NCBI RefSeq assembly: GCF_001571405.1
Contig: NZ_BCNX01000010.1
Span: forward strand, 1 to 64,000
DNA from: Methanoculleus thermophilus
GTDB taxonomy: Archaea > Halobacteriota > Methanomicrobia > Methanomicrobiales > Methanoculleaceae
Direction of reading: 5' to 3'
Length of the DNA stretch: 64,000 bases
Shown: positions 27,625-30,683 of the stretch, in pieces
How positions within the stretch are numbered: the first letter of the stretch is position 1
How the letters are laid out: the number at the start of each line of letters is the position of its first letter
Made by a program: the position numbers and the translations under genes
Notes under the pieces: model-generated
The model's database searches: none
What the model saw: only the letters and a program-made list of their open reading frames with translations
Told to the model about the DNA's origin: nothing

Positions 27625-28584
27625 TCACCAGAACCAGGCCAGCAGGAAGATGGCAACCAGCAGGAGGCCGTCCTGGAGCGCGACCGAAAGAAGCATGATC
27701 TCGGTGCCCCGCCGGGGTCCAAAGATTGCAATATAAAAGGACCCGAGCCACCGCAGGTAGGTGACGACGCTGGTCAACAGGTTCGCCACGAGCAGCGTGA
27801 TGACTATATCCCTGCCGGTCATATCGCCCGCCGCGAGCAGCCCGGACGCAAGGCTTGCCGCGGCGACGTACGACCCGAACTTTGCCGCGATGATCGCGAT
27901 GCCTTCGGGCGGAATGGGAAAGAGTCTGCTCGCACCCTCGAGGTACGCGGCAACGGTCTCGAAGACGCCCGCTTCAATGAGAAACGCCACGATGACGAGC
28001 GTCGGGATCATGATTCCGAGGATACGACGGAGGGTCTTTGCGGTCGGTCCGGCTGCGGCCGAGAGCGCCTCGCGCAGGGACAACGTCTTACCAGAGGGTT
28101 TCTCCGGCGGCGCGGATGCCGGAACCCCGGGAAGGAGCATTCGCCCGGCAACCATGACAATCCCGGTCTTGAGGAACCCGATCCCCATCAGGATGCCGAA
28201 GTAGATCAACCCGAAGACCCCGAGCAGCGGCACGTAGACCGGGATGAGGTAGCGCCAGTGCATCACGACGGCCGGAAAAGAGTTGATGAGCGCCGCGACG
28301 ATGAGCTCGCCCCTCCCGATCACCCCCTTATGATGGTAATCGACGAGCATCGCGTCCGCCGCCTGCGACGAGACGAACGCCAGGAGAAAACTCGCCCCGC
28401 ACTCGCGGGGGAGGTGGGAGAAGGTCGTGACCGGGTAGGCGATCTTTGCAATCCTATCGGTGACCCGCAGGGCAATCAGGACTTCGGCGATCAGGACGCC
28501 GATGGCGACGATCGGGACCGTCCGGAGCAGGAGATCGAATGAGAGGGCCAGTGCCGCCGAAACAATCTCTGTCGTGCCGTCCAT
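27625..28584 (-). CDS. nucleoside-recognition (Gate) domain membrane protein
   Basis: 319 residues with about eight transmembrane segments and two Gate-like halves. The first half has SFDLLLRTVPIVAIGVLIAEVL and ECGASFLLAFVSSQAADAMLVDY; the second has LRRILGIMIPTLVIVAFLIEAG and AAKFGSYVAAASLASGLLAAGD. The central loop (about 155-180) is polar. Family members include SpmA/B and ferrous-iron-transporter cores, so the substrate cannot be named. It is a single minus-strand gene with no partner. Confidence 0.75.
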   Translation of the reverse strand: MDGTTEIVSAALALSFDLLLRTVPIVAIGVLIAEVLIALRVTDRIAKIAYPVTTFSHLPRECGASFLLAFVSSQAADAMLVDYHHKGVIGRGELIVAALINSFPAVVMHWRYLIPVYVPLLGVFGLIYFGILMGIGFLKTGIVMVAGRMLLPGVPASAPPEKPSGKTLSLREALSAAAGPTAKTLRRILGIMIPTLVIVAFLIEAGVFETVAAYLEGASRLFPIPPEGIAIIAAKFGSYVAAASLASGLLAAGDMTGRDIVITLLVANLLTSVVTYLRWLGSFYIAIFGPRRGTEIMLLSVALQDGLLLVAIFLLAWFW

Positions 28585-28766: not shown

Positions 28767-28774
28767 TTTAAATA
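28767..28774 (+). promoter_or_regulatory. TATA box of the symporter operon
   Basis: TTTAAATA centred near 28771, preceded by A-rich sequence. Archaeal start sites usually lie about 25 bases downstream, which puts the transcript start near 28795, just ahead of the mini-ORF. Confidence 0.55.
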
Positions 28775-28804
28775 CAATAGATCTGGATGATTTTTAGGTA
28801 CTCG

Positions 28805-28921
28805 ATGATTGAAGATCATTTAGAGACCTACGACAGCACTCTTGTGCAGAACTGCACATCAGTGCAGAACTGTGTGACCGTGCACTGCACGTTTACGCAG
28901 AACGCATTCTCCTTTAGTTAG
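28805..28921 (+). CDS. 38-residue leader-like mini-ORF with repeated VQNC codons
   Basis: ATG 28805 follows AGGT by five bases and lies 34 bases after the TATA centre, so it would be the first translated frame of the symporter transcript. The peptide starts MIEDHLETYDSTL and then repeats the same idea: VQNCTS, VQNCVT, VHCTFTQNA. Three Cys, three Gln and three Asn codons are packed into some 20 codons. Its stop codon touches a strong hairpin (28921-28947). It may be a regulatory leader peptide or a true small protein. No homologue is known to me. Confidence 0.4.
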   Translation: MIEDHLETYDSTLVQNCTSVQNCVTVHCTFTQNAFSFS

Positions 28922-28978
28922 GGAACCAGCTCTTTTGCTGCGTTCCCGTGTAATGTAACGGTTTTTCAGTTACCGTTA
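28921..28978 (+). promoter_or_regulatory. two consecutive hairpins between the leader ORF and the symporter genes
   Basis: Hairpin 1: GGGAAC CAGC (28921-28930) pairs with GCTG-C-GTTCCC (28937-28947) around TCTTTT, with one bulged C. Hairpin 2: TAACGG (28956-28961) pairs with CCGTTA (28973-28978); GTAAC/GTTAC offers an alternative fold. Hairpin 2 reaches the AGGTGA ribosome-binding site of the small protein at 28988. No U-tract follows hairpin 1, so it is not a simple terminator. Translation of the leader would melt hairpin 1 (inference). Confidence 0.5.
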
Positions 28979-28987
28979 GGTGATTTG

Positions 28988-29116
28988 ATGTTCGGTATTA
29001 CTGATCCTGCAATCTGGTCTGGATATCTGCTTGCGCTCGGACTTACGCTCGCATGCATAGTGTACGGCCTGCTGAACTGGAATAAAGGAACGGAGGCGGA
29101 ACGGGGTGGCAGTTGA
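28988..29116 (+). CDS. symporter small accessory protein
   Basis: 42 residues with one transmembrane helix: MFGITDPAIWSGYLLALGLT, then IVYGLLNWNKG and a charged tail. This matches the tiny accessory proteins encoded directly before sodium:solute symporters. AGGTGA precedes the ATG by six bases. Its end overlaps the symporter start by 11 bases, so the two are translationally coupled. It probably stabilises or regulates the transporter in the membrane. Confidence 0.8.
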   Translation: MFGITDPAIWSGYLLALGLTLACIVYGLLNWNKGTEAERGGS

Positions 29117-30683
29117 CACTGGACTCTTCATCGCGGTGACGCTGGTTTACCTCGCCATCATCATCTGTCTCGGTTATCTCGGCTACCGCCAGACGAAAGG
29201 CGACGATGACTATATGGTCGCCGGCAGAAAGGCCAATTCTGTCGTTCTTGCCCTCTCCTACGGTGCGACCTTCATCAGCACATCCGCAATCATCGGTTTC
29301 GGCGGGGTTGCCGCCCAACTCGGCATGGGGATGATCTGGCTGACCGTCCTCAATATTGGGCTAGGGATCCTCGTCGCGTTCATAGTCTTCGGGAAACAGA
29401 CCCGCCGTATCGGGAGCAAACTCCGTGCCGTGACCTTCCCCGACCTGATGGGGAAGTGCTATCAGTCGCCGTTCATGCGCTACGCAGCAGGGCTCGTCAT
29501 CGTCATCGCCATGCCGCTGTATACGGCGGCGATCCTGATCGGAGGAGCACAGTTCATCACGAGCACGTTGCAGATCCCGTACGACACTGCACTCATCGCG
29601 TTTGCCGCAGTCGTCGCCCTCTACGTGGTGTTCGGTGGGCTCATTGCCGTCATGTACACCGACGCACTGCAGGGCGGGATCATGCTCGTCGGCATGACCG
29701 TCCTCCTCGTGCTCACCTACGTCCACCTCGGGGGCGTCGTCGAGGCGCATACCGCCCTTGCCGCGATGTCGGACCTCGTCCCGGAGGCGCTTGCCGCCGG
29801 AGGGATGACCGGGTGGACCTCCATGCCGGTATTCGGGTCGCCGATATGGCTTACCATGGTGACGACGCTCGTTCTCGGCGTGGGCATCGGGGTGCTCGCG
29901 CAGCCTCAGCTGGTCGTCCGGTTCATGACCGTCAAAGACGACCGTGCACTGAATCGTGCGGTCCTCGTCGGTGGGCCGTTCATCCTGATGATGACCGGCG
30001 TCGCCTTCACGGTCGGTGCGCTGACAAACGTCTACTTCTACCAGACGGAGGGTTTGATCGCTCTCGCGGCGGCACCCAACGGCAACGTCGATACAATCAT
30101 ACCGAACTTCATCAACGCATCGATGCCGGACCTCTTCGTCGTCATCTTCATGCTGGCGCTCCTTGCAGCAGCGATGTCCACGCTCAGCGCCCTCTTCCAC
30201 GTCATGGGAACATCGCTCGGGTTTGATCTCGCACGGCGCACCGATTCCGGTAGAGCGGCGATGCGACCGATCCAGATTGCGACCGTCGTCATGATCGTCG
30301 TGAGCGTCGTCCTTGCCTTCATCCTTCCCGGCAGCATCATCGCCCGGGCGACAGCGATGTTCATGGGCCTCTGTGCATCCGCGTTCCTGCCGGCCTACGC
30401 TCACGCTATGTACTGCAGCAGGCCGTCGATCCGTGCAGCAAAGATCAGTCTCGTCGTCGGAACGGTTGCCTGGTTTGTCTGGACCGCCTTCGTCCACGTC
30501 AAGGAGTCGGCAGCGCTCGGGATCTCGAATCTCCTCTTCGGGGTTCCGGCAATCCTTTCCGCGCCGTGGCAGGATGTGGACCCGCTCGTCGTCGCCCTTC
30601 CCCTCTCGACGGCCGCGCTGCTGGTCGGGTGGGCACTCGACCGCCACGAGGTGACCGCAGAGGAAGCGGCCAAGGCTGCCTGA
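29106..30683 (+). CDS. sodium:solute symporter family transporter
   Basis: 525 residues, about 13 transmembrane helices, of the SSS (PutP/PanF-like) family. The family patterns are visible: GYLGYRQTKGDDDYMVAGRK, LSYGATFISTSAIIGFGG (substrate and sodium site in TM1), FGGLIAVMYTDALQGGIM, and the AAMSTLSALFHVMGTSLGFDL region with the TM8 serine/threonine sodium ligands. Substrate is unknown; amino acids, acetate and other organic acids are typical. The start is a GTG overlapping the accessory protein. The C-terminal tail is LDRHEVTAEEAAKAA. A decayed copy of that tail is found at 32371. Confidence 0.9.
   Translation: MAVDTGLFIAVTLVYLAIIICLGYLGYRQTKGDDDYMVAGRKANSVVLALSYGATFISTSAIIGFGGVAAQLGMGMIWLTVLNIGLGILVAFIVFGKQTRRIGSKLRAVTFPDLMGKCYQSPFMRYAAGLVIVIAMPLYTAAILIGGAQFITSTLQIPYDTALIAFAAVVALYVVFGGLIAVMYTDALQGGIMLVGMTVLLVLTYVHLGGVVEAHTALAAMSDLVPEALAAGGMTGWTSMPVFGSPIWLTMVTTLVLGVGIGVLAQPQLVVRFMTVKDDRALNRAVLVGGPFILMMTGVAFTVGALTNVYFYQTEGLIALAAAPNGNVDTIIPNFINASMPDLFVVIFMLALLAAAMSTLSALFHVMGTSLGFDLARRTDSGRAAMRPIQIATVVMIVVSVVLAFILPGSIIARATAMFMGLCASAFLPAYAHAMYCSRPSIRAAKISLVVGTVAWFVWTAFVHVKESAALGISNLLFGVPAILSAPWQDVDPLVVALPLSTAALLVGWALDRHEVTAEEAAKAA

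Follow-up and report, generated by a model that had tools for sequence, protein, structure and literature searches.

Do archaea, too, adjust the expression of amino acid-related genes through the position of a ribosome on a leader peptide and, if so, which amino acid would be sensed? This question is raised by a locus of Methanoculleus thermophilus, in which a short open reading frame (ORF) followed by two hairpins precedes an operon for a sodium:solute symporter and its small accessory protein. Leader switches that sense amino acids are familiar from bacteria and hardly described in archaea, and a switch of this type would mean that archaea also read their amino acid supply in this way. According to a 2021 study, neither transcription attenuation nor antitermination was known from archaea (PMC8448881). 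The literature that we searched, which left most subscription papers outside its range, contained no archaeal leader-peptide attenuator, and hence priority cannot be claimed.

The locus lies in a window of 64,000 nucleotides, by which we mean the whole stretch of DNA analyzed. The TATA box, AGGT, 38-codon ORF, two hairpins and AGGTGA named in the original prediction were all found in place (Table 1). The leader ORF has an additional in-frame ATG at 28787, and the leader region folds with an energy of -75.2 kcal/mol (z = -5.0), outdoing 200 out of 200 dinucleotide shuffles. Conserved neighbours of the symporter that would betray its substrate were sought in other families and none were found, while the solved structures related to it are distant SSF relatives only, such as the sodium/iodide and sodium/glucose cotransporters. 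The divergently transcribed neighbour (27625-28584, minus strand) contains Gate domains (PF07670, nucleoside recognition).

Table 1. Features of the leader and symporter operon in the Methanoculleus thermophilus window
Feature	Position	Strand	Remarks
TATA box TTTAAATA	28767..28774	+	Promoter element 5' of the leader ORF
AGGT	28796..28799	+	Probably binds the ribosomes of the leader ORF; other groups have box A here
Leader ORF	28805..28921	+	ATG 28805, TAG 28919-28921; 38 codons plus UAG; peptide MIEDHLETYDSTLVQNCTSVQNCVTVHCTFTQNAFSFS
VQNC/VTVHC repeat stretch	28844..28888	+	Section of the leader ORF with varying copy number; not the conserved signal
Phe-biased C-terminal leader end	28889..28921	+	TFTQNAFSFS-stop; includes the near-invariant TTTAGNTAGGG
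Hairpin 1	28921..28947	+	GGGAAC-CAGC, loop TCTTTT, GCTG-(C)-GTTCCC; first pair takes the G of UAG
Hairpin 2	28956..28978	+	Local stem abutting the ribosome-binding site of the accessory gene
AGGTGA	28978..28983	+	Ribosome-binding site of the small accessory gene (ATG 28988)
Symporter small accessory protein gene	28988..29116	+	NF045580, E 7.8e-18, 64.3 bits, cut-off 35
Sodium:solute symporter (SSF) gene	29106..30683	+	PF00474, E 3e-51; start overlaps the end of the accessory gene

A search covering 41 genomes (the window's own and those of relatives) recovered matching DNA in 22. Within the genus, in the alignment of the region upstream of the accessory ATG, the TATA box, which keeps a constant distance to the leader start, the start itself, the ORF, its stop codon and both hairpins all align. 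The distance from the leader start to its stop takes eight different values between 63 and 117 nt, every one of them a multiple of three (20/20 genomes), and the distance from the stop to the main ATG keeps no frame; thus, the leader ORF is more than a chance reading frame. Its N-terminus is itself unconserved, since in the first eight codons the first and second codon positions vary like the third (minor-allele counts of 21, 13 and 16, respectively). The most variable stretch of the leader is the one with the Gln-Asn-Cys repeats, which the original prediction had taken for the signal. These repeats are reduced to a single copy in several relatives and are confined to the genus and its nearest relatives. 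As their copy number varies and other families lack them altogether, VQNC can be ruled out as the sensed codons.

Beyond the genus, NF045580 is present in 140 of the 216 genomes of the order Methanomicrobiales, and at 131 of the 133 NF045580 loci that we read in the order it is preceded by a leader ORF with a Phe-rich end and an immediately following hairpin. The device is thus conserved throughout the Methanomicrobiales. At one of the two exceptions, L157, no leader was found. The other, L067, comes from an incomplete genome and has apparently lost its stop codon, which reads TGG (TTTAGTTGGGGG), with the Phe run and hairpin intact; decay or a sequencing error is possible. A transcript start downstream of the short ORF, which would have told against the original prediction, is spoken against by the TATA-like boxes: of 119 leaders, 91% have one 5' of the leader ATG and 0% have one 5' of the main ATG. 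Readthrough of the UAG into the accessory gene, with which it is in frame in the window (66 nt), was considered and rejected, as across the order the distances fall into all three frames (36, 32 and 63 cases for 0, 1 and 2 modulo 3). Some genomes have two or three NF045580 copies: in G013 the second copy (L023) comes with a Phe-rich leader of its own, and G331 (G331:C41) has three copies in tandem. None of the 21 NF045580 loci from another family of the phylum (L028-L039, L042, L043, L045-L048, L053, L056 and L057) shows the leader pattern upstream; many of these share a motif near TTCGAAAnATTAAnGTATG plus TGTTAACA, perhaps a different promoter or operator.

The codon statistics of 119 non-redundant leaders bring out the feature that unites them, namely the C-terminus of the peptide, with the consensus F-x-F-[R/S/N]-stop. 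Phe occupies position -2 in 119/119 leaders, -4 in 113/119 and -6 in 82/119, as against 59 at -3 and 69 at -5. The peptides end in Arg (101 leaders), Ser (10), Asn (seven) or Tyr (one), and their stop codon is UAG in 110 cases and UAA in nine. Read in frame, the last 15 codons are 32% Phe; in the shifted frames, the figure is 9-10%. As a background figure, we counted frames with at least four Phe among their last 12 codons in 18 stretches of 16 kb, real leaders included: of 7544 frames that end in a stop, 45 qualify. Four leaders encode the terminal Arg by CGN rather than AGR, and the Phe residues at -4 and -6 are encoded by both TTC and TTT; both features indicate that selection acts on the peptide, beyond the RNA alone. 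Thus, reiterated codons for one amino acid do stand near the leader end, and the likeness to an amino acid-biased attenuator leader holds with Phe as the biased residue. The window's own peptide is among the weaker copies: three of its last 12 codons are for Phe, and most relatives have more.

The second conserved component is hairpin 1; in 94% of leaders, its stem takes up the last base of the stop codon in a pair. Its base pairs switch type on both sides, one position, for example, being A-U in 57, G-C in 53 and C-G in nine leaders. Our first covariation test used arms picked by folding, which biases it towards a positive result, and it was redone with fixed windows and a control. In the redone test on 28 groups, the 5' arm paired with its own downstream window with a mean of -16.3 kcal/mol, versus -11.8 kcal/mol with the windows of other families (p = 7.5e-9), and a control 10-mer from the ORF showed no gain in pairing with its own window. 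The check proposed with the original prediction, conservation of the ORF and the hairpin with compensatory changes, thus comes out in its favour. In many groups, a segment around the leader ribosome-binding site (box A) is also complementary to one immediately 5' of the main ribosome-binding site (box B), as in GGTAAAC/GTTTACC, GGTATTTTG/CAAAATACC and GGTATTCAG/CTGAATACC, with a longest complementarity of 6.1 nt for own versus 4.7 nt for other partners (p = 5.6e-5). The window's genus shows no such pairing, and box B is instead covered by the local hairpin 2; the segment pair matching hairpin 2 (M:B) covaries weakly across groups (p = 0.03). When the Phe tract or the hairpin arms were tested for pairing with the region of the main ribosome-binding site, own and other partners did not differ; the data thus give no support to a classical switch in which hairpin 1 alternates with a competing structure. 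No mutually exclusive structures were found: the arms of hairpin 1 covary only with each other, and the box A:B helix does not compete with it. The proposal that the ribosome's position picks one of two competing hairpins thus lacks a covarying alternative partner. Neither the window leader nor any of seven representative loci matched an Rfam covariance model.

To find other genes carrying the cassette, we built a covariance model from the leader end together with the hairpin and ran it against the 216 genomes of the order. Among 20 further places read, 18 have a Phe-rich ORF of their own; the remaining two have no leader and were judged to be chance matches. Ten of the 18, in two genera, precede a PheS-type protein; two representatives tested matched the phenylalanine--tRNA ligase alpha subunit (NF003210, E 2.8e-177 and 1.1e-185), and the others were assigned by the same N-terminal sequence. 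Another seven precede a branched-chain amino-acid ABC binding-type lipoprotein (one tested: NF011933, E 4.1e-26, below the cut-off) and one a 4a-hydroxytetrahydrobiopterin dehydratase-like protein (NF002019, E 6.8e-22, below the cut-off). When the search was extended to 391 genomes of the phylum, a single match lay outside the order; this partial match, in G360, comprises the hairpin only and was judged to be due to chance. A pattern scan of contigs likewise found the Phe-rich leader in Methanomicrobiales records of Methanoculleus, Methanolinea, Methanoregula and others, along with many chance matches in unrelated organisms. A Phe-rich leader before prephenate dehydratase and a Trp-rich leader before trpE were sought and not found, and most genera have no leader before pheS, the pheS of the window genome included; the set of Phe leaders therefore looks like a small regulon. 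A prephenate dehydratase domain is present in 46/46 genomes tested, so that the transporter need not mean auxotrophy.

We interpret the cassette as a cis-acting, phenylalanine-responsive leader-peptide attenuator that would sense the charging of Phe-tRNA in archaea, and put the probability of this reading at roughly 0.7. Comparative sequence data are strong evidence for a Phe-biased leader ORF, evidently conserved, with a hairpin at its stop. It has a likely ribosome-binding site of its own downstream of a promoter, and its anatomy together with bacterial precedent suggests that it is translated. The Phe codons and the association with pheS point to phenylalanine as the signal, because the cassette precedes not only the symporter operon but also pheS and an amino acid-type ABC binding protein; among these three targets, pheS does concern this amino acid. 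The original prediction thus stands in part, with an attenuator-like leader and a conserved ORF and hairpin, and fails with respect to the Gln-Asn-Cys signal and the competition between hairpins. In the proposed mechanism, the transcript would begin at the leader ORF, and ribosomes would read its short, mostly unconserved N-terminal part before reaching the run of Phe codons that leads to the stop. When charged Phe-tRNA is scarce, they would stall at these codons, and their position would decide whether the ribosome-binding site region of the next gene is open or closed. Given usual footprints, a ribosome at the stop would cover the 5' arm of hairpin 1, and one stalled several Phe codons earlier would leave it uncovered. 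We infer that Phe shortage would raise expression of the symporter operon, or of pheS or the ABC importer in some relatives.

Control at the level of translation is our preferred version of the last step and the least certain part of the scheme, to which we would give somewhat less than even odds. In most groups, ribosomes queued behind the stalled one could hold box A covered and so leave the main start site accessible; once termination has taken its normal course, hairpin 1 would refold and boxes A and B would pair. In the window's genus, the local hairpin 2 would take the place of the long-range pairing; the queue model does not yet explain this genus, as hairpin 2 would presumably need other means of opening. 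Several observations count against the attenuator as a whole: the alternating pattern at -2, -4 and -6 and the near-fixed TTT at -2 and Arg at -1 exceed what simple codon counting needs, hairpin 1 is without a competitor, box A:B pairing is absent from the window's genus, the window peptide has only three Phe, and prephenate dehydratase and most pheS genes are leaderless.

An alternative, which we consider unlikely though the strongest of the rivals, is premature termination of transcription, with the U-rich Phe tract as an entry site for FttA; leader ribosomes would shield the tract and so set how much transcript reaches the symporter. Published work makes this plausible, as the archaeal termination factor FttA binds U-rich RNA, from which ribosomes may exclude it (PMC11616081). 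TTT is more frequent in leaders than in symporter genes (0.36 versus 0.23), and some leaders of one family have at least five T after hairpin 1. However, TTC is still the commoner codon in the leaders, the Phe tract stays in frame and is interrupted by non-Phe codons, and a terminator-like site sought in the window's leader was not found. Slightly less probable is nascent-chain arrest, in which F-x-F-x-F-[R/S/N]-stop would block release at the stop codon in the presence of free phenylalanine or a related compound, thereby keeping hairpin 1 open. This would account for the preference for -2 and -4 over -3 and -5, the Arg, Ser or Asn at the end of 118/119 leaders and the stop codon at the hairpin base, and among residues near the peptidyl-transferase centre -1, -2 and -4 are strongly conserved and the others are not. 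The number and spacing of Phe differ widely between groups, however, and judging from bacterial precedent the association with pheS would better suit a sensor of tRNA charging. Finally, it is very improbable that the leader encodes a small membrane peptide acting in trans, such as a further symporter subunit: although its Phe-rich end is hydrophobic and the operon already has one small accessory protein, neither the sequence nor the length of the N-terminal part is conserved, the same type of ORF also precedes pheS and the ABC binding protein, and the hairpin covaries and takes in the stop codon.

The attenuator reading finds its closest parallels in the pheL-pheA and pheM-pheST attenuators of E. 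coli, where a short ORF with a Phe-rich C-terminus likewise lies between the promoter and the regulated gene, RNA structure follows the ORF and pheS is among the targets. In the archaeal leader, however, the hairpin is fused to the stop codon and the target is mainly a symporter. Moreover, pheL has a terminator-like hairpin with a T-run that the window leader lacks, and no structure competing with hairpin 1 was found; one group of leaders instead has a helix joining both translation start regions. Leaders of the TnaC type, whose arrest peptide responds to tryptophan, are similar in their conserved last residues and stop codon, and regulation could act at termination in both. They differ from the archaeal leader in that the latter has a variable number and spacing of Phe, an unconserved N-terminus and targets that include pheS, which suits tRNA charging. 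T-boxes and metabolite riboswitches also place structured RNA before amino acid-related genes; in contrast to these, the archaeal element has no Rfam match in the loci searched and is built on a conserved ORF. We give even odds to the idea that sensing by Phe leaders arose independently in this order of archaea and was carried as a cassette to several genes related to phenylalanine, where it would act in an archaeal mode, by pairing of start regions or by shielding from FttA, and not through a bacterial terminator/antiterminator.

At the loci that carry the cassette before other genes (L187-L193, L195-L201, L203, L204 and L206), a second short ORF of about 25-55 codons often lies between the leader and the main gene. 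It is located about 60-240 nt past the leader stop, and its end reaches or overlaps the beginning of the main gene, whether this encodes the ABC binding protein or PheS; there it takes the place that the small accessory gene holds before the symporter, and it is possibly a translational coupler.
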